Position numbers and translations under genes: made by a program
Shown: positions 30,488 to 62,228 of the stretch, piece after piece
Position numbering within the stretch: position 1 is the first letter of the stretch
How the letters are laid out: each line of letters starts with the position of its first letter
Notes under the pieces: model-generated
Databases searched by the model: none
Told to the model about the DNA's origin: nothing
Seen by the model: only the letters and a program-made list of their open reading frames with translations
DNA from: Thiobacillus sp.
Lineage (GTDB): Bacteria > Pseudomonadota > Gammaproteobacteria > Burkholderiales > Thiobacillaceae
Direction of reading: 5' to 3'
Assembly: GCA_030680405.1 (NCBI GenBank)
Contig: JAUXVT010000006.1
Coordinates: 1-64,000 of the forward strand
DNA: 64,000 bases

Positions 30488-31315
30488 TCAGAGAACATCG
30501 GAAAATCCCTTTCTCGTTGCCTGGAACCAGAAAAAGCCAAACCAGGCGAAAACGCTCGCCCCGATGAGGTAAAACATTAATCCTTTCCAGTCAGGCAAAT
30601 GACCCCAGATCAACACTTCGCGGGTTTGCTCGATAAAGAATGTCAACGGATTCAAATGTAACCACACCTGCATTGGCTCTGGTAGCGCGCTGACCGGGAA
30701 AAAGACCGGGGAAAGGAACATCAGGGCGCTAGTGAATACACCGATGAACTGACCAATGTCGCGAACGAACACCCCTAGAGATGACAATATCCAGCCAAAC
30801 CCAAGGCTCAGAATCATGAGCGGTAGCAGCACCAATGGAACAAAAATCGTTGTCCAGTGGATAAACCCGTTTAGCATGGAAAATGCCACAAGCAACACAA
30901 GCAAGCTAACCAGCGCATGAAACAATGCGGCACCCACGCTGACAACAGCAAGAATTTCCAGCGGAAAAACCACCTTCTTGACGTAATTGACGTTGCTCAG
31001 AATGATAGTCGGAGCCCGATTGAGCACTTCGGCAAACAAAGTGTGAACGATCATCCCCGCAAACAACACCACCGCAAACTGTGTATGAGATTCGTCACCG
31101 CCTGCCCAGCGTGCCTTGAAGACAACAGAAAACACAAAGGAATACACCATCAGCATGAATACGGGGTTCAGAAAAGACCACAACAGCCCCATGACCGAAC
31201 CCTTGTAGCGCCCAACGACCTCTCGCCGGGTCATTTGGGCAATCAGTTCGCGATTGCCCCATAGGCTATTCAACATCGCGACCAGTGATGTGGGTTGTGC
31301 TGCGTGAGGGTTCAT
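30488..31315 (-). CDS. wzm: ABC-2 type polysaccharide exporter permease (Wzm-like)
   Basis: This 275-aa inner-membrane protein has six predicted helices and the family start LIAQMTRREVVGRYKGSVMGLLWSFLNPV. It forms the channel that moves an undecaprenyl-linked glycan across the inner membrane. Its ATPase partner is most likely the Wzt-like protein 24 kb away (54450-55844). It is last in the leftward part of the locus, 223 bases after the HAD-fusion gene, with a strong inverted repeat in that gap. Confidence 0.92.
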   Translation of the reverse strand: MNPHAAQPTSLVAMLNSLWGNRELIAQMTRREVVGRYKGSVMGLLWSFLNPVFMLMVYSFVFSVVFKARWAGGDESHTQFAVVLFAGMIVHTLFAEVLNRAPTIILSNVNYVKKVVFPLEILAVVSVGAALFHALVSLLVLLVAFSMLNGFIHWTTIFVPLVLLPLMILSLGFGWILSSLGVFVRDIGQFIGVFTSALMFLSPVFFPVSALPEPMQVWLHLNPLTFFIEQTREVLIWGHLPDWKGLMFYLIGASVFAWFGFFWFQATRKGFSDVL

Positions 31316-38569: not shown

Positions 38570-39320
38570 CTACCGATTGTGGCATGTCGGGCTAACCCTA
38601 CCTGGGGAAACGCCGATTTCTTCCGTCACCGCGAGGAGCGAAGGTAGAAATCCAGCATGCACGCCTTTGTCTATGAAGGGTTGCCAATACCTTGCTGTGA
38701 TGAAAGGCGAATCCATGGCAATGGCTTCAAGTATCGTGGTACATCCAGTCTCGATCCAAAAAAGCTGCTTCCAGTACAAGAAATAGTCCGGTTCTTCGAG
38801 AAAATCCCGAGCGTCCATGGCATCCAGGGGCAACAACTCAACCGAGCCAGATCGAGCCTCATTTTGCAAAGGGTCCACCAGAGGGGTGCCGTTATTGATT
38901 CACGCCGCCGAGATGGTCAAGCGCCACGACGTCGGGTGCAACATGGCCCGTGCGGCAAGACTTATGATCTTGGCTAATTCGTGAAGTCCTTGCAGGCCCA
39001 TCTCTCCGGCATCTACGCCTCCGCCGATCATCCATCACCACCTCGCGGTTGGTAGCCCGCAATGTATCCATTGCACTCCCGAGCAGCATTCCGCTTGTCT
39101 ACCCGATGAAACCCGTGAACAGCCCGATGCAAGGATGACGTCCCCACCATAGCCACTGAATCATCGACACTAAATTAACGCATCGAATGTCTCAAAAACA
39201 TTGACACGTTCCGCGCCTCTTGCCAGCATTGCTTCCGTTTCGGGTGTCCGTTGTTTTTCCTGGCCACTGACATCTTGCCAATTTATGGTTGCAACGGCCC
39301 GAAATTGATTCCCTGGCTAG
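38570..39320 (-). pseudogene. Decayed polysaccharide-type gene with several frameshifts
   Basis: This otherwise empty 800-base gap holds coding-like pieces in successive frames on the minus strand. From upstream to downstream they are VATINWQDVSGQEKQRTPET to FETFDALI, DSVAMVGTSSLHRAV, MLLGSAMDTLRATNREVVM, IGGGVDAGEMGLQGLHELAK, VVALDHLGGVN, and a last frame of 102 codons. The last frame runs from VDPLQNEARSGSVELLPLDA through GCTTILEAIAMDSPFITARY and ends at 38570. Joined, they read as one protein. The GCTT-ILEA part resembles the donor-side loop of GT-B-like surface carbohydrate proteins. At least three frame changes make it a pseudogene. Confidence 0.65.
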
Positions 39321-39371
39321 CCATGACCAAAAGTCGAACTAACAGTCCCTTCATCTAACAACTACGTGGCC

Positions 39372-40685
39372 ATGCCTACAGTCAGTCGTAATGCCTCGTG
39401 TCCATGCCATAGTGGACTGCGTTACAAACACTGTTGCGGCACGCAGCATAATTTAAGCCTCCACCCGCCCTCGCTCAGTGAGGATCTGCGTCTCACCGGC
39501 CTGGAATTACACAAGCACGGCCACTTCGTTGAAGCCATCAATCTGTACGATGCTGTGCTTAAGGAGCATCCCGGCGACTGGGATGTTGCGCATATGAGAG
39601 CCGTGGCTTTGTTTCAACTTGGACTGATGCCGGAATCCCGTGCTGCCTTCGCTGCGCTGTTGTCTACCCCTGCGACAGCGCTTCCGGCTTTTTGGACCAA
39701 TCTTGGTTTATTGATCGCCGCCATTTGTCCTGATCCGCTATCCGCAAAATTTCAAAGCAGGTTGACCGGACATACCCGTTTTCACAGCCCAGCTGAGACT
39801 CAGGTGCTTAATACCCGCTCTCTCCCGACTATTTCGGTTGTTATGCCCACCTACAACCATGCTGAGTATGTTGGGCAGGCCATTGATTCAGTGTTCGCAC
39901 AGTCACGCCTCCCACTGGAACTGATCGTGATCGATGATGGCTCCATAGACAATACTGCAGAGGTGTGCCGTCGCGCGCTCGCCTCCGCACCCATCCCGGT
40001 CACGTTCATCTCGCGGGAAAATCGAGGCGCGCCGGCGACACTCAATCAAGCCATTAAACTGGCTAATGGAGAATTCATTCAGCCCATCAATTCAGACGAC
40101 CTTCTTCCGGCAAATCGAATCGAGGCGATGCTGGCGGAACTGCTGGAGCGAGGCGGCGACTGGGGCTTCGCGCGGGTTGCATACGTTAATGCGCTAGGAG
40201 ATCGTCTTGACCCCGGACAACACCCCCGAGCCCTATCCCTGACCGGGGCTCAGGATTCCGTCGTGATGTCGAGAACCTTGAGTCTGGGCTTGCTGCGCGC
40301 CAATGCCGCCATTTCCTCCGGGAATCTGACATTCCGCAAGACACTATGGCAGACCCTCGGAGGATTCCGCGACTATCGCTACAATCACGATTGGGATTTT
40401 TGCCTGCGCGCCTCGCTAGAAAGTGAGCCCATCTTGGTGCCCAAACAGCTCTATGAATATCGCATTCACGCTACAAACACCATTACCGAGAACAATTCAG
40501 CGCCAAGGCTTGAGCACAAAAGGATGATGGCCGACTTCGTTACCTACTCACAGGGCCAAACTTTTTGGCCTAATCCTGTTGCGCCCACGCTCGCCAACTG
40601 GGGTAATGACTACCTTGCATTACTCGGCGCCACCGATTCCCTGCGGCACCTCCCCATTGCACTCGTTGAGCGGCTACTCGACTAG
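39372..40685 (+). CDS. SEC-C zinc motif-TPR-GT2 glycosyltransferase fusion
   Basis: This 437-aa protein begins with a SEC-C-type zinc knuckle (Cys10, Cys12, Cys21, Cys22 in SCPCHSGLRYKHCC). TPR-like helices follow (LHKHGHFVEAINLYDAVLKE; MRAVALFQLGLMPESRAAFA), then from about residue 155 a GT-A domain: ISVVMPTYNHAEYVGQAIDS, LIVIDDGSIDNTAE, QPINSDDLLPANR and YNHDWDFCLRASLE. The glycosyltransferase part is close in sequence to the GT2 at 37225-38556. The ATG at 39372 is used; a GTG six bases upstream is possible, and no ribosome site is obvious. It is transcribed opposite to the genes on both flanks. Codon use is AT-richer than the housekeeping genes. Confidence 0.85.
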   Translation: MPTVSRNASCPCHSGLRYKHCCGTQHNLSLHPPSLSEDLRLTGLELHKHGHFVEAINLYDAVLKEHPGDWDVAHMRAVALFQLGLMPESRAAFAALLSTPATALPAFWTNLGLLIAAICPDPLSAKFQSRLTGHTRFHSPAETQVLNTRSLPTISVVMPTYNHAEYVGQAIDSVFAQSRLPLELIVIDDGSIDNTAEVCRRALASAPIPVTFISRENRGAPATLNQAIKLANGEFIQPINSDDLLPANRIEAMLAELLERGGDWGFARVAYVNALGDRLDPGQHPRALSLTGAQDSVVMSRTLSLGLLRANAAISSGNLTFRKTLWQTLGGFRDYRYNHDWDFCLRASLESEPILVPKQLYEYRIHATNTITENNSAPRLEHKRMMADFVTYSQGQTFWPNPVAPTLANWGNDYLALLGATDSLRHLPIALVERLLD

Positions 40686-40713
40686 GCAGCGGCTCTGACG
40701 TATCGAGAAACAG

Positions 40714-41613
40714 ATGAAAGCATCCCTCATCATTACTACCGAGACTGATGTTTTTCACCACAAGCAGCGAGACTTCTTTGCCTCATTCGCTGGACAAACC
40801 TACCCTCACAACGAATTCGAATTAATCATCGTTGATGGAAATGGCAGGACGGGTACTGCTGAGGCATATGCGGCATTTTGCGCCCAACACCCATCCATCT
40901 CTGTAACCTATCTGCAAAGTCCAAGCCGTGCACGCGCATTCGGGAACAACCTGGGAGCAGCCAAAGCCACCGGAGAATTGCTGGTCTTTCTTGCAGACGA
41001 TTTTGACCCCACGCCTGAGTTTCTCGCAGCACACGTCGAGTATCACAAACTCAACAGCGACCTCAATGCCGCAGGGATTGGTCCTGGATTCTTCCCGGAT
41101 GATCTACGCAATGATCTTTTCGCTCGTTGGCAGGAAGACTCCGGGCTTATTTTTGGCGTCGCCATGCGAAGCGCCATAAGCGTGTGGCCAAGACAGTTTT
41201 TCTTTGCGGGCAATGCTTCAATCAAGAAGGCAAAATTCGACTCACTTGGCGGCTTCAATGAAGCTTTCCTGCACGATGCCTGGGATGATTTCGAGTTCGG
41301 ACTACGTTGGGCAGCCAGCGGGGGCTACTCCCAGTTCTTGCCAGCAGCCATGACGATTCATCGACACGCCGTGTCCCTTGATGAACGGTGTCTCAATATG
41401 AAGCGTGCGGGCGAGGCCGCACAAATATTGGAAGCGCTACACCCTCATATTCGTCATGGATGGAAAGCGAAACTTCATCGACATAGGGAGCCTCTCCTAT
41501 CACTGCCGGGTCCAGATGCTCCCACTCAAACCTGGATCGCCTACTATTCCCAGCGCCTTGACCAAGCCTTTGCGCGTGGATATTGGTCCCGCACCGACAA
41601 TGACCATGCATAG
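40714..41613 (+). CDS. GT2 glycosyltransferase
   Basis: This 299-aa single-domain GT-A enzyme has ASLIITTETDVFHHKQRDFF at the N-terminus, the strand FELIIVDGNGRTGT, a metal site LLVFLADDFDPTPEFL and the acceptor-side GGFNEAFLHDAWDDFEFGLR with the catalytic ED-type pair replaced by DD. No signal or membrane segment. It is downstream of the SEC-C fusion gene with a 28-base gap, so it is co-transcribed. Sugar unknown. Confidence 0.87.
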   Translation: MKASLIITTETDVFHHKQRDFFASFAGQTYPHNEFELIIVDGNGRTGTAEAYAAFCAQHPSISVTYLQSPSRARAFGNNLGAAKATGELLVFLADDFDPTPEFLAAHVEYHKLNSDLNAAGIGPGFFPDDLRNDLFARWQEDSGLIFGVAMRSAISVWPRQFFFAGNASIKKAKFDSLGGFNEAFLHDAWDDFEFGLRWAASGGYSQFLPAAMTIHRHAVSLDERCLNMKRAGEAAQILEALHPHIRHGWKAKLHRHREPLLSLPGPDAPTQTWIAYYSQRLDQAFARGYWSRTDNDHA

Positions 41614-41754
41614 GCTTGCTGCCACAAGCTGGCTCCTGAATAGCCGTTGTACAGGTTACAAAACGTCCGCGGACGGGATCACAGACGCTTCACCGCCATG
41701 CTTCAGGGTTTCGAACAGGACGGAATGAAAGCGAGGACATTGGCGGCGTTCAGC

Positions 41755-44085
41755 TCATCCAGCGGATTCATGACTTCCCTTGTTCATGCGAGGAACATTG
41801 ACCGCGAAATCGGCGAGCGCCCCGCGCAGCGCCGCGACGACCGCCGCCCAATCACCCGGGTGAGGTTGGCGGAACAGGCGCGCAGTAGGGTACCAGGGGC
41901 TGTCGGCGCGATTGAGCAGCCACCGAAAATCCGCGATGTACTGCAACATGATCCAGACCGGGCACCCCAATGCGCCAGCGGCATGGGCGATGGACGTGTC
42001 AACGGTGATGATCAGGTCGAGTTCGGCCATCAGCGCGGCGGTCTCGGCATAGTCGGTCTGTTCATCCCCCCAATCGAGAATGGGCGTTTGTACGGCTCGC
42101 AGTTCCTCGCGTCCGGCACCGAGTTGCAGGTTGATCCAGGCCACGTCGGGCAGATCGAACAAACCGGCGAGTGCTTGCAGGGAACAGGAACGATTGCGGT
42201 CATCCACGTTGGTGGGGCTACCGGCCCAGGCCAGGCCGACGCGCAGCCGCGCCGGTATCGCGTCCAGGCGTTGTCGCCAATAGGCACGCCGGTCACTTGG
42301 TGCCGATAGGTAAGGCACGTCGGCGGGAACGTCGGCCAGTGAATGGGTGCCGCACAGACGCGGCAGGCTCAACAAGTGGCAGATGTAATCGTAAGCGGGA
42401 ATGACCGCTTCGCCGGTGTACACCGCCGACAGGCCATGTACGTTGCGCAGCAGCCCGGCCACGTGCGCCTGGCGCACATGCAGGCCGATCCTGGCCCCCT
42501 GGTCGGCGAGCGGCTTGACATAGCGAATGAACTGCAAGGTGTCACCGATCCCCTGTTCGGCAATCAGCAGCAGGCTTTTCCCCGCCAACGCCTCGCCCTG
42601 CCAGAGGCGGGGCGAGCCGGCCATCGCCGGCAGCCGGTAGCCCGCGGCGTATTCCGGGCATCGCATGCGCGATTCATACTCCGCCCAACCGTGCGCATAA
42701 TCACCCCGCGTCAGCAGCACCAGCGCCCGGCTGAAGCGCGCTTGCGTCAGATTGGCATCCAGTGCCAGGGCGCGATTGAAGGCATCCCGCGCCTCGTCGA
42801 GATGACCGAGCTTGTGCAGATCCAGACCGAGGTTGCTCCAGGCCGGGGCATAGGCCGGGTGCCGGTCCAGTGCCTTGCGATACTCGGCCACGGCCTCCTC
42901 CAGACGTCCCTGCGCGCGTAAGCACAGGCCGAGGTTGTTGAAGAAGTCCGGCACGTCATCCCGTTTCGCCAGGGCGGCGCGTATACGTCCTTCCCCTTCG
43001 CGCGGCCGCCCTTCCTGCATGTCGAGCACGCCCAGATAATGTTCCGCGACCGCGTCGTCGCCCAGCGCCAGCACAGCGTCGTAGCCTTTCCGCGCGGCAG
43101 CCAGGCGGCCGGCCTGATGGTGTGTCATGGCCTGCCGTAACAAAGCCTCCGATGCGTTCTCTGTCGGCGCCGCAGTCGCGCCTTGAGCGGCGCCGTCCTG
43201 ACCGCAGCAATGCTTGTAGCGTTTCCCGCTGCCGCACGGGCAGGGGGCGTTGCGACTCGCCGGCGCGGCGTCGCGCTTGCCAGCCGAGCCGTTCAGCGCA
43301 TCCAGCATGCCGGCGCATTTGGCGTCGGCGGGAAAGGCGCGCAGGCGTTGTTCCAGCAATATCCGCGCCGAATCGAGTCGCTTCAGATCGATGAAGTTTT
43401 TCGCCAGTGACAGAAACTGGATCGAGCCGAGTACCGGCCTCGGCATCGCCGCCACGAAACCGGACATTTCTTCATCGGCGAGGAATTGCCACATATTGAA
43501 CAGACCATGGAACCCCAAGGTCCTGGTCTGCGGGTAGGTGGTTTCGAACGAGAAACGGTCCGCCACCTCGGGTGGCGCGAAACGCATGCCATAGCGGGAT
43601 TCCAGCATCGGCCGGTAATGCCGGCAGATCATTTCGTCCTCGGGCTCGAAACGGTCTATCGCGGGATCCTGAAGCGCTTCCAGCAGGCGCCGCGATCGCA
43701 GCGAAAAGCCACCGTTGCCAACGCTATGCGCATCATGGTGGAACCCCCAGCGCGCGCCGATGTAGTCATGGTCGAGAAAGTCATCACGCCAGGCTGCGGG
43801 GTTGACCACATAGCCATCCCACTGGATCAGCAGCACATGTTCGGTTTCGATATGCCGGAGCAAGTCCTTCATGACGAAGCGCGAATACGCCGCGCGTCCT
43901 GCCAGGGGATCGATGGCGACATGGCGGGAACCGCCCGTGTCTTCCGCCGAGTCCGAGATGAACAAGGCATCGGCGAAATCCATCGCCGCCAGCGATAAAC
44001 GCATCGCCCTCGCTGCAAGCGCGTGGGTCTGGGTGTCGACTACACAAAGTGTGGTATGGGCGGCCCTGATCCTTGTATTCGGCAT
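41755..44085 (-). CDS. DUF5672-SEC-C-TPR-GT9-like fusion protein, 776 aa
   Basis: Domains in order: a DUF5672 glycosyltransferase-like domain (about residues 1-200; VLLIQWDGYVVNPAAWRDDF, FLDHDYIGARWGFHHD, GNGGFSLRSRRLLEAL); a SEC-C zinc motif with Cys282, Cys284, Cys293 and Cys294 (APCPCGSGKRYKHCCG); at least four TPR repeats (about 310-480, e.g. FNNLGLCLRAQGRLEEAVAE); and a heptosyltransferase-like GT-B domain (about 500-770; LLIAEQGIGDTLQFIRYVKP, RVGLAWAGSP, DLIITVDTSIAHAAGALGCP). The ATG at 44085 follows GTGGAAA and lies 11 bases after the upstream stop; the frame is open further upstream but would overlap that gene. Two possible catalytic domains are joined by a scaffold. Confidence 0.85.
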   Translation of the reverse strand: MPNTRIRAAHTTLCVVDTQTHALAARAMRLSLAAMDFADALFISDSAEDTGGSRHVAIDPLAGRAAYSRFVMKDLLRHIETEHVLLIQWDGYVVNPAAWRDDFLDHDYIGARWGFHHDAHSVGNGGFSLRSRRLLEALQDPAIDRFEPEDEMICRHYRPMLESRYGMRFAPPEVADRFSFETTYPQTRTLGFHGLFNMWQFLADEEMSGFVAAMPRPVLGSIQFLSLAKNFIDLKRLDSARILLEQRLRAFPADAKCAGMLDALNGSAGKRDAAPASRNAPCPCGSGKRYKHCCGQDGAAQGATAAPTENASEALLRQAMTHHQAGRLAAARKGYDAVLALGDDAVAEHYLGVLDMQEGRPREGEGRIRAALAKRDDVPDFFNNLGLCLRAQGRLEEAVAEYRKALDRHPAYAPAWSNLGLDLHKLGHLDEARDAFNRALALDANLTQARFSRALVLLTRGDYAHGWAEYESRMRCPEYAAGYRLPAMAGSPRLWQGEALAGKSLLLIAEQGIGDTLQFIRYVKPLADQGARIGLHVRQAHVAGLLRNVHGLSAVYTGEAVIPAYDYICHLLSLPRLCGTHSLADVPADVPYLSAPSDRRAYWRQRLDAIPARLRVGLAWAGSPTNVDDRNRSCSLQALAGLFDLPDVAWINLQLGAGREELRAVQTPILDWGDEQTDYAETAALMAELDLIITVDTSIAHAAGALGCPVWIMLQYIADFRWLLNRADSPWYPTARLFRQPHPGDWAAVVAALRGALADFAVNVPRMNKGSHESAG

Positions 44086-44095
44086 AATTTCCACG

Positions 44096-47000
44096 TCAAT
44101 GCTGGAATTCCCGGGCGGCATCCGAATCCGTTTTATCACCATGCAAATAGAAATCCAGCATGGCGCCCGTCTGTGCCTCCATTACCTTGAGAAGAGTGGC
44201 CCGCGCTGCTTCACCTGTCGCGCGCCTCAGATCTGGGTCGTCGGCCAGTTGTCCAATACACGCCAGGGCTTCTTCCTCGGTTTCGACGATAAAACCGTTC
44301 CTGCCATGTTCGATCAGCTCTGCCACACCCACCCGCTCCCCGAACAGCACAACGGGCAAGCCCATAGCCATGGCTTCCATGATGGCCGTCCCGCCGGATT
44401 CATACAAGTGCGGGTGTATGCGATAGATGAAGCAATCCAGCCCATCGAGAAATTCGACTATACCGCTCTGCGTTTCCGGTTGAAGCGTAATGCGGTCTTC
44501 CAGACCATTACGCTTCAGCGGCTCAGCCAGACAGGTTCCGCCTGTAATCAGAATCTGGTGTCCAAGACCCGCCAAACGTCGAAAGAATGCCGGATCGTTC
44601 GGATGAAACTTCAGCCGGTCATCGCGGCTATGGCGACCGATGACAATAGGCCCCGATCGATATGATCTGGTGCGAACCGGACGGAAACGACAAGCATCGA
44701 CAAAAGCGTATTCCACCCGTCCCGCCACCCCGACGGCATCGCGAAAGCATCGGGACGGAAAGCTGAAATCGAGTGAGAAAGCGGTTGGAACCTCCTCAAG
44801 TTCAACCAATCTCTCAATCAAACTTGCGGGATTGTCTATGTTGTAGCAAAGGGTAATTCGTTGCGCCTGGCATTGCTTCAACCAGCTTCCGTACTCAAAA
44901 TAAGTGCCCACAAAGACAAGATGGCCAGAACCGGGATAACGACCAAGTGCCGCATTGATCGTCTCAACAGGAAAACGATCGGCAAATCCCGGCAAAGGCG
45001 GGACGGTGGACCAAATGCGCGCCCGAACATGCCCCGAGAGTTGCTCAAACAGGCCCAGCGCTCGATGTTCCGAACCGCCAAGCTGTCTTAAATCCGCAAC
45101 AATGTGAATTTCAGGAATTTGAGTTGTACTTGGGTTGTGCGCCCGGCTATAGAAACGCTCGGTCAGCTTGACCACCATACGCCGCGTCGGGGCATCCCGC
45201 TCGGGTTTGTACCAGTGCTGACTAGCCCGCGTCACGGCTTCCGCAGCCTTGGTCGTTTCGCCTAGCGCTGCTGCCTTCCGGAAGAATCCGTAGGCCTCTT
45301 CATACCGCGCCATTTCCGAACATAGGTCACCGCAGGCCAAAGCTGTTTCGGCGCGAGTCAAATCCGAAGGCGACAGGCGCGTCAAAATCTCGATTGCGGT
45401 AAAGGCCTCACCAGAACGAAATGCCGCCAATGCACGTTGCGCTTCCGTTTCAAGGGGATTCACAGGTGGAGGTGGAGCCGCAGCCGCCAACTGGCCACAA
45501 CAATGTTTGAAGCGTTTACCGCTGCCGCAAGGACAATCCGCCATACGGGAAGGCTGCGCCTTTTCGGGCAAGGCGGGTCGTGTCTTCGGTTTAAGCTGAG
45601 GTGGCGGACCGCCCAGCCGGGACAACAATTGCAGCGCCGCCTCACGCACACTCGGATCGGAAGTTGCCATCCATGCTTCCTTCCGCGCGCCTGAATAGTT
45701 CCCAGCTCGTTCCAGCGTAGTCGCGAGATGGAGTCTGGATTCACCTGCCGCCGGATTGATTTCTACAGCACGTCGCAGTATCCGCTCGGCCTCATCCAAC
45801 TCGCCATTCATAAGGGCTACATACCCGAGTCCATTGATAGCATTTGGATCGTCAGGATACTCCCGCAGCACGGCGTCAAAAGTTGCTCGTGCTTCCGTAA
45901 CATCACCACGAATGTACGCAGAGACTCCTTTCTTGCAGGCATTCGAGACACGGGCAGTGTGGTAAGAACCGGTACCAAACCATTTGTAGCGAAGCAACTG
46001 TTCGAAACGCGTTACCCTGGTAATGTCTCGATTATTTCCCGGCCCTGTCCCTGACGTTCCCAACTCCATACCATAATTAAAACTTACATGGCGAACATGC
46101 TCAAAATCGGAATATTCGGCAATCTGTGAACAGAAATCGCGATCTTCACTGATCTCAAATCTCTCGTCGAATCGGCAGCCTAAATCCAGCACATCTCGCC
46201 GAATCAACGCAGTCTGAAAGTAGAGCAGCGGACCATAAAACATAATCGCCCGGTTGAACGGAAAACCGTACAAGAATTTGGTTTCGCCATCGGAGTCGAC
46301 AAACCTGGTCAGCCCATAAACCACGAGCTTGTCCGTTGACGATGCTGCTTTCATCAACGTGGAAACATGATCCGCATCGAAGCTATCATCGTCATCCAGA
46401 AAACCGAACCACTCCCCCCTCACCGCATCGAGTCCGGCATTGGCGGCGTGCGGTCTGGACAAGCGCTGGTCGCCACCCACCATGCGGATTTCGTGACCCA
46501 ACCGCCAGGCAATGTCAGGAAGCGGCGGATGGGTACCGCCCGTTGCGTCCACTACGATGACATCCAATGCCGGGTAGTCTTGAGCCGCCAGCGACTCCAA
46601 AGCCAGGCTCAGCTCGGGGCGCCCCATACTGCGCACGATGATAGATACCAGTGGAAACGCCTGGGTTTCCACTATTTGTTCGTGTATAGATTTTTCTGTG
46701 GCGGGAAGCGCCTCCAGATATGCTCGAACCGGCAATGTTTCCGCAAGGCTTTCGAGCTTCACCCAATAGGCTTCGTTCACCCAGCGCCGTCTGGAAAAAT
46801 TGTAGATGTTGAAAAAATGCTGCTCGCTAAATGTATTGTTGCCGTGGTGAATATATACATAAAGGCTCGGTGCTTCGAGGCTTAGAACGCGTTCGCGTTG
46901 TATCAGCGACTTCATCATTTCCGTGTCCTCGCCGCGGCGCAATGCCGGGTAAGGTGGCAAGACCCGCCTCAAGGCCAGGATGGAGCCTTCCCAAAGTCGC

Positions 47001-47485
47001 ACGCCTGAAATTGCCAGTCTATTGGTCTCGGGCCACCACAGCGTCCAGCGGCGCAATACGCAAGCTGATGCTTGCGTTGACAACAGCGCAGCCAACTGCG
47101 TCTGAATCCGTTCAGGCGCATAAAGATCATCATCGTCCCACTGGCATACATATTCGCCTTGCGCGCTGGAAACGGAAATGTTTCTGAGATCCCCGAGCGT
47201 CCTTACTCCCGCCGGCACCTCCACCAGGCGAATCCTGTCGTCTTTCAGGCTGGTGACGTAGGGAATCAATTCGCAAGTTGAATCATCGACAACGATGATC
47301 AACTCGCGGTTCTCATAAGTCTGGTACCGGAAGCACGCGATGGCGAACCTGGCTGGAAATAATTTGCCCCGAGTAACCATCAGGCAAGACACCAGTGGAC
47401 GGTCTTCCATTGGCCATGCCACATCAAGGGAGATCACTTCTCCCTCTCGTCCGTTTTCAATGATTGAGGCTGGAATAGTTTGCAT
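44096..47485 (-). CDS. Multi-catalytic GT2-GT2-TPR-SEC-C-TPR-GT4 glycosyltransferase, 1129 aa
   Basis: The first GT-A module covers about residues 30-240 (LVSCLMVTRGKLFPARFA, CQWDDDDLYAPERI). The second covers about 275-500 (PLVSIIVRSMGRPELSLALE, FGFLDDDDSFDADHV, FEISEDRDFCSQIAEY). TPRs at about 505-630 are followed by a SEC-C motif (Cys651, Cys653, Cys662, Cys663; DCPCGSGKRFKHCCG) and more helices. A GT4 module runs from about 790 to the end (IPEIHIVADLRQLGGSEHRA, YESGGTAIMEAMAMGLPVVL). ATG 47485 is taken as start; a TTG at 47545 would add 20 residues, and neither has a clear ribosome site. It is upstream of the DUF5672 fusion gene in one operon. Confidence 0.85.
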   Translation of the reverse strand: MQTIPASIIENGREGEVISLDVAWPMEDRPLVSCLMVTRGKLFPARFAIACFRYQTYENRELIIVVDDSTCELIPYVTSLKDDRIRLVEVPAGVRTLGDLRNISVSSAQGEYVCQWDDDDLYAPERIQTQLAALLSTQASACVLRRWTLWWPETNRLAISGVRLWEGSILALRRVLPPYPALRRGEDTEMMKSLIQRERVLSLEAPSLYVYIHHGNNTFSEQHFFNIYNFSRRRWVNEAYWVKLESLAETLPVRAYLEALPATEKSIHEQIVETQAFPLVSIIVRSMGRPELSLALESLAAQDYPALDVIVVDATGGTHPPLPDIAWRLGHEIRMVGGDQRLSRPHAANAGLDAVRGEWFGFLDDDDSFDADHVSTLMKAASSTDKLVVYGLTRFVDSDGETKFLYGFPFNRAIMFYGPLLYFQTALIRRDVLDLGCRFDERFEISEDRDFCSQIAEYSDFEHVRHVSFNYGMELGTSGTGPGNNRDITRVTRFEQLLRYKWFGTGSYHTARVSNACKKGVSAYIRGDVTEARATFDAVLREYPDDPNAINGLGYVALMNGELDEAERILRRAVEINPAAGESRLHLATTLERAGNYSGARKEAWMATSDPSVREAALQLLSRLGGPPPQLKPKTRPALPEKAQPSRMADCPCGSGKRFKHCCGQLAAAAPPPPVNPLETEAQRALAAFRSGEAFTAIEILTRLSPSDLTRAETALACGDLCSEMARYEEAYGFFRKAAALGETTKAAEAVTRASQHWYKPERDAPTRRMVVKLTERFYSRAHNPSTTQIPEIHIVADLRQLGGSEHRALGLFEQLSGHVRARIWSTVPPLPGFADRFPVETINAALGRYPGSGHLVFVGTYFEYGSWLKQCQAQRITLCYNIDNPASLIERLVELEEVPTAFSLDFSFPSRCFRDAVGVAGRVEYAFVDACRFRPVRTRSYRSGPIVIGRHSRDDRLKFHPNDPAFFRRLAGLGHQILITGGTCLAEPLKRNGLEDRITLQPETQSGIVEFLDGLDCFIYRIHPHLYESGGTAIMEAMAMGLPVVLFGERVGVAELIEHGRNGFIVETEEEALACIGQLADDPDLRRATGEAARATLLKVMEAQTGAMLDFYLHGDKTDSDAAREFQH

Positions 47486-47624
47486 TCTGGATTGGACGGT
47501 CGAACTGCTTTTAAAGAAAACCAAATTCCGTTTCAACCATCGCAATGATGATTTGTATAAAACGCTTTTAACTCAGTCTGCTTCCTAAGGCACTAATTTA
47601 TTGGTGGAAGTGGCATGTAATTTG

Positions 47625-53238: not shown

Positions 53239-54453
53239 TCAGATGGGCGCATCGGACAACCCTGCCAGTTCGAGCAAACGCGAGACGGAGCCCGTGGAAG
53301 CCTGGCGCAAGGGTCCGACGTCGACGCCATAGGCCGCCAGATGCCGGATGGCGATTTCGTACTCCGAAGGCTGCCCCAGACGGAAACGCAGATAACTTGA
53401 ATCGTAGATCAGGTGCATCGGAACGAGATAGGCAAACAGGTAGAACGCCAGGCGCGCCACGCGCGCCTGTTCGTCGCCAGCCTGCGCGATGAACCGGTGT
53501 GCGCAGTCACCCAGCACCTCGACGGGCGTTTGCATCAGCATCGCCTCCAGCCCGACGCTGGAATTGATGGTCAGAATATTTTCGCAGCGGCGGATGAATG
53601 CCACGCTGTCCGGCGAGTCGTCCACCTCGTACCAGTCCGGCTTGAGCGCGAACAGGCTGCCTGGATGGCCACGCATGAGCACACCGCCGTCGGGACGGCG
53701 CAAATGGGCGTAAACCAGCAGAGACTGATTGTCGAAGCCATGACCAAAGGCCAATAAATTGGAATCGTCCTCAACCTGGAGCGCCACGCCGAGCTTGAAT
53801 CGCGCCTCCGGCATCTCGCCGTCCGCGGCCAGATAAAAAAAGCGGCGGAGCGCCTCGATGTCAAACCCGGCCCCGGGCCGGAAACCGCTGTCCAGATAGC
53901 GCCGCTCGGCCTCGGTATTGCCGTTTACGCCGCTGAAATCGAGATAGGCCGTGGCTCGGTATTGCGGCCAGCGCAGGGGGCCTATCTCCAGATGCACCAC
54001 CGGGATGCCTTTTTCCTCTGCCGCCGCGCTCAGCGATGGGCAGTTACACCAAGTCAGAATGGCCTCGATATCTTGCACAGTCGTCTGTGAAAAGATTTCC
54101 GCGAAGGCTGCATCGAGACAGGGCACCCGCTCGCTCAATAGGCGTCTGAAAGCAGCCATGGGATTCCCGCCGCTTTCTGCCAGCAGCGTCCCGAAAACCG
54201 TCTCGGACAAAAACCTGTATTCATGACCCGCCATGCTCTCGCGAGCAGGCACCTGATATTGGAGCCGCTGCGCGTTGCCCGGCTGCATCTCCCAACGGTT
54301 TTGCGCCCGCCAGTGCTCCGGGTCCCGGGTGTAATCCTCGCTCGCGATGAACTGCATGCGCTCGCCAAACGACGACAGCAGGCGGTAATACACCCATAGA
54401 TAGGGCGCCCGGTAGCCACGCAGGGGGAAAGGCAGTAAAAACGCGGCAATCAT
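53239..54453 (-). CDS. KpsC/GT99-like capping glycosyltransferase candidate, 404 aa
   Basis: This soluble protein has no signal. ILTWCNCPSLSAAAEEKGIP, VVHLEIGPLRWPQYRATAY and LDFSGVNGNTEAERRYLDSG look like the N-terminal half of the capsule or GT99 beta-Kdo transferases. The C-terminal half (GVLMRGHPGSLFALKPDWYE, ILTINSSVGLEAMLMQTPVE) has the surface-carbohydrate GT-B donor loop with the Ser-Ser-x-Gly-x-Glu pattern. In related loci such enzymes add the Kdo cap that is recognised by the Wzt exporter. It overlaps the wzt stop by four bases. The family call is from memory of sequence style and is moderate. Confidence 0.6.
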   Translation of the reverse strand: MIAAFLLPFPLRGYRAPYLWVYYRLLSSFGERMQFIASEDYTRDPEHWRAQNRWEMQPGNAQRLQYQVPARESMAGHEYRFLSETVFGTLLAESGGNPMAAFRRLLSERVPCLDAAFAEIFSQTTVQDIEAILTWCNCPSLSAAAEEKGIPVVHLEIGPLRWPQYRATAYLDFSGVNGNTEAERRYLDSGFRPGAGFDIEALRRFFYLAADGEMPEARFKLGVALQVEDDSNLLAFGHGFDNQSLLVYAHLRRPDGGVLMRGHPGSLFALKPDWYEVDDSPDSVAFIRRCENILTINSSVGLEAMLMQTPVEVLGDCAHRFIAQAGDEQARVARLAFYLFAYLVPMHLIYDSSYLRFRLGQPSEYEIAIRHLAAYGVDVGPLRQASTGSVSRLLELAGLSDAPI

Positions 54454-55844
54454 CGGTCCGCGGCGCCCGGCTGGGATACCTGTATCGGCGCATGCACCAC
54501 CCCTACCTGCTCGCGGGGCGACCAGAAGCGCAAGTGGCCTACCGGGCGACGCTGATCCAGCTCTTCCCGAACCTCGCCGTTAAAACAGGCCAGACCACAA
54601 TGCACCAGATATTCCCCGGAGCTGAGGGGCAGGCGCACCCTGTATTCCACCTCATGCCTTCCCGGCTCCAGATCCAAAAGCTGGCCAGCGTTGAGATTGT
54701 TATCCCCCCAGATATCGCCGCCCCGCACGCCAGAAATCGAGATGCCCAGGGCGACATTCTGGATGGTTTCCGCCGCCAGAAGACTGAACCGGAACACGAC
54801 TTCCTCGTTCGGCCTGAGCAACGGATTTTTCTCCAGCGAGGCCCCATCGCCCTTGTACAAGTCAAGACGTTCAATGATCGCGCGGGCGCTGCCGAAACGT
54901 TTTTCCCCCAAATCCCGATTCCATTCACGTTCCTGGATCGCCTTGAGTTCGCTCACAGTCATCTGGCGCGCATCGCGGCCCGAGTCCGACACCGGTTCCA
55001 TCCACTGGGTCTGAGCCTGGTTCATCATGCCCTTCTCGTAGGCCAGCACGGCGGCCAGCACATCGGGGGTGTCATGAATCACCCGGCCACCGTCCAGCAC
55101 AATGCAGCGGTCGGCATATTCCAGAATGCTGCCAGTGGAATGCGTCACCATCAGGATGGTGACGCCCTTCTCCCGCAAGGCCTCCATGCGCTTGAAGCAC
55201 TTGTACTGAAAGCCGATGTCGCCCACCGCGAGCGCCTCGTCGACGATGAGGATTTCCGGATCGACGCAGGCCTGCACAGCGAATGCCAGGCGCACGTACA
55301 TGCCGCTGGAGTAGGTCTTGACCGGCCGGTCGATGAACTCGCCGATATCCGCAAAGGCCGCGATTTCATCGAAACGTCGCGCCACCGCTTCGCGGGACAG
55401 GCCCAGAATCGAACCATTCATGAACACGTTTTCGCGGCCGGTGAATTCCGGGTTGAAACCCGCGCCCAGCTCCAGCAGCGCCGCGATGCGTCCACGCGTT
55501 TCCACTTCGCCGCTGCTGGGGGAAAGTGTGCCGCTGATGATCTGCAGCAGCGTGGATTTGCCGGCGCCGTTGCGGCCGATTATCCCGACCGTTTCACCAC
55601 GCCGGATGTCGAAACTCACCTCGTTCAGCGCCCAGAATTCCCGGTGATAGCGCCGGGGAGCCCGCCCAAACAGACGATGCAGCCTGGCCATCACCATCTG
55701 CTTGAGACGATCGCGCGGCGCGTCGTAAATGGGGAAGTATTTGGATACCCCCTTTATCCGGATTGCATACTCGGAAGCGCGCCCAGCCTCAATCTCGCTG
55801 GTTGAGGCATTGGTGCCCCGGGTTGAATTCATTGCGTCATACAT
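54450..55844 (-). CDS. wzt: ABC transporter ATPase with C-terminal glycan-binding domain (Wzt-like)
   Basis: This 464-aa protein has Walker A GRNGAGKS at residues 90-97, the signature YSSGMYVRLAFA, Walker B ILIVDEALAVGD, and a conserved switch His in MVTHSTGSI. After the nucleotide-binding domain (about 280 residues) a separate domain of about 170 residues (VVFRFSLLAAETIQNVALGI; EYRVRLPLSSGEYLVHCGL) matches the Wzt C-terminal carbohydrate-binding domain, which reads the chain end before export. The start at ATG 55844 overlaps the acyltransferase stop; ATG 55832 is also possible. Partner permease: 30488-31315. Confidence 0.92.
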   Translation of the reverse strand: MYDAMNSTRGTNASTSEIEAGRASEYAIRIKGVSKYFPIYDAPRDRLKQMVMARLHRLFGRAPRRYHREFWALNEVSFDIRRGETVGIIGRNGAGKSTLLQIISGTLSPSSGEVETRGRIAALLELGAGFNPEFTGRENVFMNGSILGLSREAVARRFDEIAAFADIGEFIDRPVKTYSSGMYVRLAFAVQACVDPEILIVDEALAVGDIGFQYKCFKRMEALREKGVTILMVTHSTGSILEYADRCIVLDGGRVIHDTPDVLAAVLAYEKGMMNQAQTQWMEPVSDSGRDARQMTVSELKAIQEREWNRDLGEKRFGSARAIIERLDLYKGDGASLEKNPLLRPNEEVVFRFSLLAAETIQNVALGISISGVRGGDIWGDNNLNAGQLLDLEPGRHEVEYRVRLPLSSGEYLVHCGLACFNGEVREELDQRRPVGHLRFWSPREQVGVVHAPIQVSQPGAADR

Positions 55845-56961
55845 GGCCGGTCCGCACAGTAGCACGAACGCCCGACACCGTAGCGGGAAAATACCGGTCG
55901 CGCAGGGCATTGAAGCGCTTCTCATAGCCTTCATACACCCCGTGTGAAATCGCCAGGGTCAGCACCATGAAAGCCAGCCACATCCCCAATGCCCCCAACC
56001 GGGAACCATCACAGCAACCGAATAGATGAATCAATATCAGCATCACGGGGATATTGACCAGATACACGGAATACGAGATCCGGGCCAAAAATCCGCTCGC
56101 CGTTGCCAGCCAGCCTGGCAAGCGGCGCTCGATTCCGATCAGCAACAGACCCGCGCAACCGATGGGCGCAAGGCTCAGATAAAGCGTTTTGGCGAAGAAC
56201 GATTCGTTCAGTTCCGCTTCCGTGGCCAGGCCGTAATAAATTACGCAGGCCACGAAAATCATCGTCATCCCGGTCGCCAGTCCGGTTTTTTTCAGCCAAC
56301 GAGGATGCCGGTCAACCATCCAGGCCAGCAGCACGCCGAACATCAAGGTATCGAAACGCAGAAAAACGACTTTCCTGAGCCCCGCATCCCACGTCTCGAT
56401 CGAGTTCGCGACCAGCAGACGCGCCAGCAGGGACACCACGATCACTGTCACGGCCACAACCAGGATCGAGCGGGCAGGCGACAGGCCCAGCAACCGGCTC
56501 ACCAGCAGAAACAGGGCCGGAAACAGCAGATAGAACACTTCTTCCAGCGCCAGGCTCCAGGCCTCGGAGAAGAAAAGCGGATGGGGACCGAACAGGTTCT
56601 GAATAAAAACCAAATATTTCCAGACTGCTTTCAGTTCAGCGGAATAAATCCCAAGCAAGACCAGCAGTACATTGACCAGCAAAAACAGATAGTAGTTGGG
56701 CAGCGTACGGAACCAGCGACGTGCATAAAACCCCCTCAACCAGTGCGGGCCGCCCCCCCTGGAAAGACGGATGAGGATGCCCCCGATCAGAAACCCACTC
56801 AGTGCAAAGAACAGCTCCACCCCCATGAAGCCGCCAAAACGCAGATATTCCGCCCAGGGCATGGCAGACCGCAGGAAAAAACGGCCATGGCTCAGCAGCA
56901 CGAGCAGGATCGCCAGCGCCCGGCACAGATCGAGCCAGTCGTTTCTGCGCGCGACCCTCAT
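55837..56961 (-). CDS. Acyltransferase-3 family membrane O-acyltransferase
   Basis: This 374-aa protein has about ten membrane helices. The motifs DWLDLCRALAILLVLLSHGRFF and GVELFFALSGFLIGG match the family start, and the conserved RRWFRTLPNYYLFLL follows. It is first in the leftward operon that includes wzt, the capping candidate and the second acyltransferase. It shares only the family, not close sequence, with the acyltransferase at 52003-53202, so the two may modify different positions. Confidence 0.9.
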   Translation of the reverse strand: MRVARRNDWLDLCRALAILLVLLSHGRFFLRSAMPWAEYLRFGGFMGVELFFALSGFLIGGILIRLSRGGGPHWLRGFYARRWFRTLPNYYLFLLVNVLLVLLGIYSAELKAVWKYLVFIQNLFGPHPLFFSEAWSLALEEVFYLLFPALFLLVSRLLGLSPARSILVVAVTVIVVSLLARLLVANSIETWDAGLRKVVFLRFDTLMFGVLLAWMVDRHPRWLKKTGLATGMTMIFVACVIYYGLATEAELNESFFAKTLYLSLAPIGCAGLLLIGIERRLPGWLATASGFLARISYSVYLVNIPVMLILIHLFGCCDGSRLGALGMWLAFMVLTLAISHGVYEGYEKRFNALRDRYFPATVSGVRATVRTGHV

Positions 56962-58425: not shown

Positions 58426-60168
58426 TCAGTAAAAGTCCGCTGAACCTTCATTGACCAGATAACGGAAGTTAGTTCCGACTGCATCTGTGCTACTGAACAG
58501 ATAATACTGTTTGTTCGCCACGATCGGACAATAGCCAGGCCCGGTAATGACGTAGGGCTGTTGCGTCGAGGTGGTCCTACACAAGGCCGCAGTCGTCTCA
58601 TAGGTCGCCGTCGGGCTGTCGCTTAGCCATACCTTCAAAGCTTGCCCGACGTTACCGCCATCCCCGCTGGCCAAGGTGAAGTATTTCGCCGTAGCACCTG
58701 CGCCCGATTTCGACGTATAGCGCAGGCCCAGAGTACTTCCCGAACCATAGGCAAATGTGGTTTGCGTGCTCGTGCCGTTTACCGTGCCGGTAAACGATGT
58801 TTTCACGCCGCAGCCTGAGCTAGATGACGAAGTTATATTTTCCCCATTGAGGCAGCCCGGAACATAGCTGGTCGTATACTGAGAAGTCGAGCCGCTCTGG
58901 TCTGCAATCACGCGTCCGGTTGTGTTCGGCGGTATCCACAGGCCCGTACCCGGGTCGGTGGTGGACACCGTCTGCACCGCAAAGCTCGCCGACACGGTAC
59001 AGGCCGATGTGATTGCACCCGTGGTGTAGGTGTTACCAGACAGCGAACCGCCACAGCCGCTTACCGTGGCAGCATAGCCGTTGGCTGGGGTTACGGTGAA
59101 GGTGGTGGTGGTGCCGCCGGCCACATCCTTGCTGGCGCTGATAGTGCCATTGCTGCCGGCTGTGGTGGTGACCGTGTAGCCTCTGGGCGCCTGACAGCTT
59201 GTTGCATTGGAACCACCATTAGCACCATTACAGCTCCAAGTGTAATTTGTCGAGTTCGTAGTAACGACGGACGCGCTGCCGGTGGAGCACAGGTTGGCGC
59301 TGGGTGCGGAGGTGACCGGCGTCGAATTGCTTGCAGTGCCACAGGCGCCATTGATCGGCGCATTGGTAAAGCTCGCAGTCACTGTGCAGTTTGCCGTGAC
59401 CGGCCCGGTGGTGAAATTGTTGCCGGACTGGGATCCGCCGCAGCCGCTAATCGCTGCGCTATAGCCACTGTTGGGCGTTGCAGTGATTGTTGCCGTGGCG
59501 CCTGAGTTTACCCCCTGGCTGAGGGGGCTAACCGAACCGTTTGCTCCGGCTGTGGCAGTCACCGTATAGCCCCGCAGCGCATAACAGCTGGCCTCGGCGC
59601 CGCCCGTCAGGCTGATGCAGGACCAGGTAAAGGAATCCGGCCCGCTAATGGCCAGGGCCGCCTTACTCCCGCTGGCGCACTGCGCACCGTTTGCGGGCAT
59701 GGATGTGGTGGCACCGCCTTGTGCGGTGCCGCATTGCGCGTCAACCGGGGTCGTGGGGTTGATAACTCCCTGGGCCTGGGCAATTGCAGCACTCGAAGAT
59801 TTGACCACGACCTTGGCCGTGCTGGTGGTACTGCCAAAGGTATCTGTACCACTCACCGGCGTGCCCGTCACAGAGAACGTAAACTCGCTCGAACCGGTGG
59901 CAGCAAGACCGACTGGGGTCGTATAGTAAACAGGGATACCCGCAATATGCCCGGACAGGGCAACGTCACCCGTGACGGATACAGTGCCCATTTTCCAGTT
60001 GATGGCGGAAAGCGCGCCATCGCAGGTGGCGCTCAATTGCAGCGTTTGCCCCTCGGTAATGATTGAGTTTGTAGGCGCGACCGTGCAATTGATTATTGCC
60101 GCAAGCGCAGGCCCGCTCAAAATGCTGGCAGCGATCACCGCCCAGCGCATATTTTTCACCAGTTTCAT
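58426..60168 (-). CDS. Large secreted protein with tandem Cys-containing beta repeats, 580 aa
   Basis: It has a signal peptide (MKLVKNMRWAVIAASILSGP, cleavage near ALA-AII) after the ribosome site AAGGAAG. An Ig-like N-terminal domain (residues 20-120) is followed by two tandem units. Each unit has a Cys-Gly-Thr-Ala module with a Trp-Ser-Cys core and an InlB-like B-repeat (RGYTVTATAGANGSVSPLSQ; RGYTVTTTAGSNGTISASKD) ending in a Gly-Cys-Gly-Gly motif and a second Cys. The C-terminal 160 residues are a Ser/Thr-rich beta domain with several Cys. It is probably exported through the type II system whose secretin lies at the window end. Function unknown; adhesin-like or matrix-like. Confidence 0.82.
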   Translation of the reverse strand: MKLVKNMRWAVIAASILSGPALAAIINCTVAPTNSIITEGQTLQLSATCDGALSAINWKMGTVSVTGDVALSGHIAGIPVYYTTPVGLAATGSSEFTFSVTGTPVSGTDTFGSTTSTAKVVVKSSSAAIAQAQGVINPTTPVDAQCGTAQGGATTSMPANGAQCASGSKAALAISGPDSFTWSCISLTGGAEASCYALRGYTVTATAGANGSVSPLSQGVNSGATATITATPNSGYSAAISGCGGSQSGNNFTTGPVTANCTVTASFTNAPINGACGTASNSTPVTSAPSANLCSTGSASVVTTNSTNYTWSCNGANGGSNATSCQAPRGYTVTTTAGSNGTISASKDVAGGTTTTFTVTPANGYAATVSGCGGSLSGNTYTTGAITSACTVSASFAVQTVSTTDPGTGLWIPPNTTGRVIADQSGSTSQYTTSYVPGCLNGENITSSSSSGCGVKTSFTGTVNGTSTQTTFAYGSGSTLGLRYTSKSGAGATAKYFTLASGDGGNVGQALKVWLSDSPTATYETTAALCRTTSTQQPYVITGPGYCPIVANKQYYLFSSTDAVGTNFRYLVNEGSADFY

Positions 60169-60755
60169 TGCTCTTCCTTTCAAGACAAACGTCTCATTTT
60201 ACCGGGGGCACAACCTACCGCTGCAGACGCACCGATGCCCGCATGTTTCGAACAAGCCGTACCGTAGAACAACCGCAAGACTTTAAGTTCAAATTATATT
60301 GTAATTGGCTAGTATGCATGATCGTAACCTGTTTGCTGTCACCGGATCATTCGACGGATGGGTTGGGAGTCGAACCAATGATCCCTTACAGTTCGTAACG
60401 GTAGGTTTGTTCATTACTTAAGAGATTTTGAGATAAATTTTTTATTTGTCCAACAGGACGGCCATCGGCTCCGGCAGGGTTAGCGTGACTAGAGGCGTAC
60501 TGGCTCGGCTTCATGCTGAACAACCTATTGAGAAACGACAGCTAGCGACGCAGGCCTATGCTGGCCCTTGTACATTCGGTACATTCGCGCCGCCACACAC
60601 ACACTGCATAGCGATCCGCCCGACATCCATCACCTAAAGGCCCCTACCGGCCTGGCAAGCGCACATAAAAAAACCCCGCCCATAACAAAGGCGGGGTTTA
60701 TCTACAGCCCGAGAGCCTGCTCGCGCAGGCTCTTAAGTGCAGGTTTAGCTATTAA
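60169..60755. other. Intergenic region, no gene seen
   Basis: This 587-base AT-richer stretch contains the promoter side of the repeat-protein gene and, at its right end, the terminator of the surface protein gene (60667-60699). I see no coding signal. A T-arm-like string near 60360-60385 was considered and rejected as a tRNA. Confidence 0.6.
60667..60699 (-). terminator. Rho-independent terminator of the surface protein gene
   Basis: AAACCCCGCC, nine-base loop, GGCGGGGTTT is a perfect stem with an A-run on its left side (U-run in leftward RNA). It lies about 57 bases past the stop at 60756. Confidence 0.88.
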
Positions 60756-62207: not shown

Positions 62208-62228
62208 CACTTATTACTCCTTGCAAGG

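Follow-up and report, generated by a model that had tools for sequence, protein, structure and literature searches.

SEC-C and TPR modules fused to transferases, with three examples in a Thiobacillus glycosyltransferase cluster

A 64,000-nucleotide stretch of a Thiobacillus sp. draft genome (GCA_030680405.1, contig JAUXVT010000006.1), referred to here as the window, contains three genes, named p1, p3 and p4, whose products combine a SecA-like SEC-C knuckle, tetratricopeptide repeats (TPR) and glycosyltransferase (GT) domains. The SEC-C-TPR-transferase arrangement is a real and conserved combination of known parts which, as far as the literature searched shows, is undescribed. The genes and their domains are the following.

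39366 to 40685, plus strand: p1 (SEC-C - TPR - GT2), 439 residues from a GTG start, with an ATG at 39372
39387 to 39440, plus strand: SEC-C of p1 (RNASCPCHSGLRYKHCCG), by Pfam and a whole-genome profile search
39501 to 39662, plus strand: TPR of p1, residues 46-99, with TPR_19 exceeding its cut-off and TPR_16 narrowly missing it
39834 to 40151, plus strand: GT2 domain core of p1, residues 157-262 (Pfam)
41755 to 44142, minus strand: p3 (DUF5672 - SEC-C - TPR - GT9-like), 795 residues, likely start 44085
43507 to 43908, minus strand: DUF5672 of p3, residues 79-212 (Pfam)
43198 to 43254, minus strand: SEC-C of p3, between low-confidence linkers (residues 286-295 and 316-327), by profile, alignment and AlphaFold2 model
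42751 to 43026, minus strand: TPR array of p3 (Pfam match at residues 373-464; helices of the model span 330-480)
41803 to 42681, minus strand: GT9-like region of p3, residues 488-780 (Pfam, orthologue and structure search)
44096 to 47545, minus strand: p4 (GT2 - GT2 - TPR - SEC-C - helical - GT4), 1149 residues from a TTG start, with an ATG at 47485
47087 to 47410, minus strand: first GT2 of p4, about residues 46-153 (profile match)
46268 to 46618, minus strand: second GT2 of p4, residues 310-426 (Pfam)
45752 to 45910, minus strand: TPR preceding SEC-C in p4, residues 546-598 (Pfam)
45491 to 45535, minus strand: SEC-C of p4 (DCPCGSGKRFKHCCG), by Pfam, genome search and homologue alignment
44198 to 44557, minus strand: GT4 domain of p4, residues 997-1116 (Pfam)

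The C-x-C-x8-C-C motif, which a preceding sequence-only reading had placed at residues 10-22 of p1, 282-294 of p3 and 651-663 of p4, was confirmed at these positions given later start codons (residues 12-24, 301-313 and 671-683 from the starts of the open reading frames, ORFs). Similarity of p3 to its orthologues begins after about residue 20, therefore its start is likely at 44085 and not at 44142. The assignment of the motif to SEC-C held in the hidden Markov model search with PF02810, as all three proteins scored over the curated cut-off of 20.4 bits (p1 28.6, p3 34.5 and p4 24.5 bits in the Pfam scan; 33.3, 40.0 and 30.2 bits, respectively, in the whole-genome search). The TPR-like helices noted beside the motif correspond to at least one TPR family over cut-off in each protein (in p1, TPR_19 only). 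Among the proposed transferase fusions, GT2 in p1, DUF5672 in p3 and GT2-GT2-GT4 in p4 stood, whereas the GT9 match of p3 (PF01075) reached 18.9 bits, just under the cut-off of 22; the orthologue in locus L036 exceeds it with 23.3 bits. The Pfam scan gave no match in p1, p3 or p4 to PF13844 (GT41, OGT/SPINDLY) or to SecA ATPase families. No NCBIfam equivalog was found at cut-off in p1 and p3 or among the best 25 of 36 matches for p4, and no TibC-named model was among the matches listed for the three proteins.

In the genome of the window (G000), a 2.67-Mb draft that is 87% complete, five SEC-C hits exceeded the cut-off, corresponding to SecA (contig C66), a YchJ-like protein (contig C54), p1, p3 and p4; thus, the SEC-Cs found outside SecA and the YchJ-like protein all lie in one cluster. 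When all six frames of the window were scanned for CxCx8C[CH] (frames of at least 40 residues), the pattern occurred in p1, p3, p4 and one spurious frame of 75 residues.

Orthologues of p3 were gathered by whole-protein similarity and not by SEC-C. Full-length p3 is present in five of 116 other family genomes, with 70-86% identity, and a sixth orthologue occurs in L144, from a metagenome-assembled genome (MAG) titled Pseudomonadales bacterium; all seven proteins, including that of the window, carry SEC-C. Over all pairs of the seven, amino-acid identity is 95.5% in the 19-residue SEC-C, 80.6% in the TPR and 77.2% in the GT9-like region, and it falls to 41.9% and 39.7% in the linkers before and after SEC-C. 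The SEC-C ranks 7th in conservation among 740 segments of 19 residues, and its codons show 107 synonymous vs 18 amino-acid differences over the same pairs. Likewise, p4 and three homologues (L144, L036, L130) have C-P-C-G-S-G, R, K and C-C-G in common, in an invariant block surrounded by linkers that do not align. The four ligand cysteines are present in all the p3 (7/7) and p4 (4/4) proteins aligned. The complete GT2-GT2-TPR-SEC-C-GT4 order of p4 is found in L144, next to the p3 orthologue with one gene between; the p4 homologue in L131 meets the contig end ahead of SEC-C, and in four other genomes the second GT2 (about residues 283-522) is the sole part of p4 that is matched.

These comparisons show that SEC-C is under strong purifying selection among the homologues of p3 and p4. 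Since the block is kept beside drifting linkers, a random addition with non-conserved cysteines, which the sequence-only reading had named as grounds for its own refutation, is ruled out. A related explanation, according to which SEC-C has no role and was acquired by neutral domain shuffling in a fast-evolving glycan cluster, would account for the patchy distribution of full-length p3 and of the module as a whole (at least four of 70 class genomes) and for a degraded p4-like fragment in the window, but it is already disfavoured by the selection on SEC-C and is the most improbable of the explanations considered.

The AlphaFold2 model of p3, built from 7 sequences, is mediocre (mean predicted local distance difference test score, pLDDT, 59.6); it contains a confident TPR array at residues 330-480 and further helices at 241-283 before SEC-C, with the linkers on either side of SEC-C below 50 pLDDT. 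The model of p4 is poor (mean pLDDT 45) but repeats this order, with helices at residues 529-643, a loop with SEC-C, helices at 697-800 and then the GT4 part. The top Foldseek matches of p3 were SPINDLY and OGT, with template modelling scores (TM-scores) of about 0.2, and the capsule polymerase Cps3D was also among its structural neighbours. In p1, p3, p4 and 19 aligned modules, SEC-C stands directly ahead of a TPR or helical segment. This position is what would be expected if SEC-C were a structural or regulatory knuckle that needs no external partner and serves to cap or order the TPR array, or as a sensor of metal or redox state. The variable, low-confidence linkers flanking the p3 SEC-C are at odds with such a role, as are the nine further family matches of p3, related TPR-GT9-like proteins whose alignment starts at residue 337 or later and which manage without SEC-C (0/9 in the loci examined). 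We regard this explanation as a serious possibility that nevertheless falls short of even confidence.

The view that the module is reused gained support from enzymes of other families, since SEC-C-TPR is also joined to GT41, sulfotransferase and methyltransferase domains. In the genus of the window, SEC-C-TPR-GT41 proteins are encoded in six loci (L039, L044, L050, L209, L210, L216) and a SEC-C-TPR-sulfotransferase in L038; counting retrieved loci only, at least seven of 25 same-genus genomes, window included, are carriers of a SEC-C-TPR-transferase. A survey of 321 genomes of the class, in which at most 13 candidates per genome were scored and 17 rows outside the window reached the SEC-C columns, produced 15 such proteins outside the window (7 GT41, 7 sulfotransferase and 1 methyltransferase), with class proportions biased by a query profile built partly from proteins of this kind. 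Two rows were dropped: L098 has SEC-C, but its sequence as read showed no TPR, and L099 lacks the motif. When PF02810 was searched in 70 class genomes, SEC-C-TPR-transferases were found in at least four (G000, G072, G093 and G114), a lower bound given that 17 stretches were examined, SecA-length frames were assumed to be SecA and most short frames were omitted. Of 15 SEC-C frames inspected in this survey, one is a carrier, 11 have the motif C-terminal and three have it near the N-terminus; none of the 14 non-carriers matched the reference domains used. Among GT41 proteins of the class, SEC-C occurs in one of 22 distinct proteins with a complete N-terminus (30 loci minus 6 cut and 2 duplicates). 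Fusions to methyltransferases were located in L147 (7992-10064), L217 (57-1424) and L086 (3521-4792), and one of these SEC-C-TPR-methyltransferases is encoded on the Hydrogenophaga plasmid pBPS33-1, flanked by metal-resistance genes; an Azospirillum GT41 match from the plasmid search was without SEC-C, and no p3 relative was found in viral contigs. In a phylum survey with a 19-row SEC-C-TPR profile (397 genomes, 10 candidates scored in each), matches were dominated by plain TPR proteins, and L218, among the matches listed the sole outside one starting in the SEC-C columns, lacks the motif and looks like a protein of the TPR-GT9-like kind. SEC-C-TPR is, then, a sparse but recurring module on transferases of several chemistries and an optional add-on that is kept by selection in the testable p3 and p4 homologues.

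The cluster around p1, p3 and p4 includes these further features.

30488 to 31315, minus strand: ABC-2 permease, Wzm-like (PF01061)
38570 to 38878, minus strand: ORF of 102 residues, apparent GT4 remnant of a p4-like SEC-C protein (66% to L036 and 63% to L130, about 60 residues)
53239 to 54453, minus strand: GT99 (Glyco_transf_99) glycosyltransferase (Pfam)
54450 to 55934, minus strand: Wzt-like ATPase with Wzt_C domain (PF00005 and PF14524)

A WsaF-like enzyme at 33647, two acyltransferases and a protein of 1480 residues with three GT2 stretches and a GT4 complete the picture. Based on the presence of the Wzm permease, the Wzt ATPase with Wzt_C and the clustered GTs (GT99, WsaF, GT2s), this region looks like an ATP-binding cassette (ABC) transporter-dependent surface polysaccharide locus. 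The apparent GT4 remnant suggests that the cluster may once have had a second p4-like gene by p1. The plus-strand genes p1 and p2 end against p3; p1 lies on the opposite strand to p3 and p4 and is therefore not co-transcribed with them. A DUF4254 gene directly follows p3 in L144 (9162-9779), L132 (9150-9797) and L036 (7416-7868), and no such gene turned up in the scan of 27 ORFs of the window.

Several related clusters hold more than one SEC-C frame: three in L036 (p3, a p4-like protein and a 92-residue frame), three in L128 (p3, a p1-like protein and one whose SEC-C-TPR belongs to a fourth type), two in L131 (p3 and a fourth-type protein of 293 residues with no catalytic domain recognised) and one each in L129 and L130. 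The p1 homologue of L128 (7421-9370, minus strand) shows a Lactonase beta-propeller match ahead of SEC-C-TPR-GT2 (23.3 bits, cut-off 21.7), and its frame ends within the GT2 domain. Genes p3 and p4 are neighbours in four of the seven p3 loci (the window, L036, L144 and L131, where the contig ends within p4). The two or three SEC-C frames per cluster in the Thiobacillus relatives (L036, L128, L131), this adjacency of p3 and p4 and the adjacent pairs of SEC-C-TPR-GT41 genes in two other genomes (L084, L090) would fit the single complex of transferases proposed in the sequence-only reading, with the module as a mutual connector; the SEC-C/TPR modules of the three proteins would then attach to one another or to a shared scaffold. 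We consider it unlikely, as no p4 homologue lies beside p3 in the stretches of L128, L129 and L132 examined, four genomes (G004, G007, G011, G012) have one SEC-C-TPR-GT41 protein as the only such carrier among their classified SEC-C hits, and no scaffold was found.

Several known systems share parts of this architecture. The C-terminal metal-binding domain of SecA (PDB 1OZB, 1SX0, 1TM6) has a similar CxCx8C(C/H) motif with flanking R-N-x-P and K/R-x-K, and the p3 SEC-C is close in sequence to the SecA peptide of 1OZB; the window proteins differ from SecA in lacking its ATPase, in carrying SEC-C internally or N-terminally rather than at the C-terminus, and in its fusion to TPR and glycosyltransferase domains. 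In Escherichia coli, YecA/AscA and YchJ carry a SecA-like knuckle outside SecA, as the window proteins do, and we know of no transferase for either; the N-terminal-type knuckle of YchJ lacks R-N and K/R-x-K, whereas another solved YchJ knuckle (9L6B) has both. OGT/SPINDLY and bacterial GT41 enzymes resemble p3 in that a TPR array leads into a GT-B-like transferase, and SEC-C-TPR-GT41 proteins occur in the same genus; however, PF13844 is absent from p1, p3 and p4, and the low TM-scores of p3 come from a mediocre model. Cps3D (PDB 8QOY) is a multi-domain polysaccharide enzyme with a TPR match, but it is described as TagF-like and the profile match spans TPR columns only, not SEC-C. The nearest account found in the literature is a mycobacterial study, according to excerpts of which a SEC-C and TPR protein is needed for surface exposure of HBHA; SEC-C is present in both Rv0613c and MSMEG_1285, with a TPR domain in MSMEG_1285, and the excerpts, by whose description they are likened to the window proteins, mention no glycosyltransferase domain (PMC6032435). 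In line with the statement of the sequence-only reading that no function had been described for the combination, no account of SEC-C glycosyltransferases was found among the listings of the open-licence literature searched, and the sole mention of DUF5672 found there concerns, by its title, another subject.

Taken together, p1, p3 and p4 can be viewed as probable cytosolic glycosyltransferases of a Wzm/Wzt-type surface-glycan cluster that have an accessory module in common: a SEC-C metal knuckle on short variable linkers, located either between TPR/helical arrays or where such an array begins. The knuckle would act as a docking tag that takes the enzyme to an external partner. Presentation of the acceptor, or of a second protein, would fall to the TPR array, and catalysis to the GT domains. 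The most likely partner would be the surface bound by SecA's own domain, namely SecB and/or the ribosome near uL23. As indicated in excerpts of a study on SecA, its metal-binding domain binds SecB and ribosomes, the latter first suggested by conserved exposed positive residues and then demonstrated, and the domain is retained in species without SecB; on this analogy, the window enzymes would perhaps come close to SecB or the ribosome (PMC6620043). Metal binding, docking, the identity of the partner and the nature of the acceptor are the parts that we infer. This reading of SEC-C as a docking tag on a flexible tether, with SecB or the ribosome as the first candidates for its external partner, is proposed tentatively and with appreciable doubt; it is given the same weight as the structural or regulatory explanation.

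The residues beyond the metal ligands were compared by aligning 31 SEC-Cs of the transferase group by their cysteines, a group that includes L130 (no Pfam TPR) and L131 (no recognised catalytic domain). Arg is kept in 30, Asn in 28, Pro in 26, Tyr/Phe/His in 31 and a basic residue in 31/31 at each of two positions; the Arg, the Asn and the basic residues were not demanded by the search pattern used to gather the set, while the invariant cysteines, Ser and Gly follow from that pattern and were not counted as evidence. In 28 SecA-type SEC-Cs (one checked by Pfam, the others assigned from motif and frame) all these residues are kept but one proline, and five N-terminal-type YchJ frames have Arg in one, Asn in none and no basic residue at either position. 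The R-N...K/R-x-K residues are the general SEC-C consensus; as most SEC-C tags carry them they single out no particular partner and do not point to SecB or the ribosome in particular. For the same reason the docking reading and the wider proposal given below were weighted down and the structural explanation up, given that residues of a general consensus may serve the fold. This consensus could be explained by one partner shared across the SEC-C family or, alternatively, by a requirement of the fold.

A number of observations speak against docking on SecB or the ribosome. Besides the transferase group, the consensus residues are present in 23 C-terminal SEC-C tags on other proteins (Arg in 22, Asn in 22 and K/R in 23 and 23) and R, N and K/R are kept in the YchJ knuckle of 9L6B, and 20 of the 31 SEC-Cs were gathered with SEC-C profiles, which favour consensus members. 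The last ligand of the p1/p3/p4-type SEC-C is Cys and not the His of SecA, and the SEC-Cs of p1 and p4 are off consensus at three (P, G, K) and two (N, P) positions, respectively. The union of the parts is also variable: a GT2-TPR homologue of p4 in G379 (L133, 37%) has no SEC-C within the 16 kb examined, and in G421 (L130) GT2-TPR and SEC-C-GT4 are separate frames, the latter without TPR by Pfam. The cluster looks like one for surface polysaccharide synthesis, which uses lipid-linked glycan acceptors, not nascent proteins. SecB is found in 57 of the 58 genomes tested, with or without SEC-C-TPR proteins, its gene being present in the genome of the window, so that co-occurrence does not discriminate between the explanations. 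One observation points the other way, towards a connection with Sec: in L132/L145, from a MAG titled Hydrogenophilus, the p3 orthologue starts 49 nt past the secA stop on the same strand (L132 9794-14879, minus strand), an adjacency seen in one of seven p3 loci that may be due to chance.

A wider proposal, which we consider decidedly unlikely, holds that SEC-C-TPR is a portable targeting module bringing glycosyl-, sulfo- and methyltransferases to proteins bound for export while these are on SecB or the ribosome, so that surface proteins would be modified before or during handover to SecA; if true, Sec export and protein modification would be coupled in a way not recognised so far. Docking on SecB or the ribosome, if it occurs, would tie protein export to the transfer of glycans or sulfate in the cytosol in a concrete and testable manner, and would offer a reason for the scattering of SecA-like knuckles over proteins of unknown function. 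At least a dozen SecA-like knuckles are counted in Pfam, according to an excerpt (PMC8076867). Should docking take place elsewhere, SEC-C-TPR would still stand as a module conserved on chemically diverse transferases, and no described partner was found for it.

Some minor observations can be added. The genome of the window also encodes a GT41 frame of 824 residues (C39:108811-109872, plus strand), about 45 kb beyond the window, with no SEC-C hit in the whole-genome search. SEC-C proteins of a different kind, in which some 100 residues precede the motif, are encoded in L037 (6648-8561), L256 (3134-5212) and L262 (2876-4885); the sole domain match of the first is a TPR under cut-off, with no transferase domain, and the other two did not match the reference domains used. 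A PpiC isomerase at 57426 adjoins the glycan cluster, and two minus-strand genes of the window (58426-60183 and 60756-62210) encode proteins that by eye appear to be exported and are possible surface substrates; an InlB B-repeat-like domain is present in one of them.

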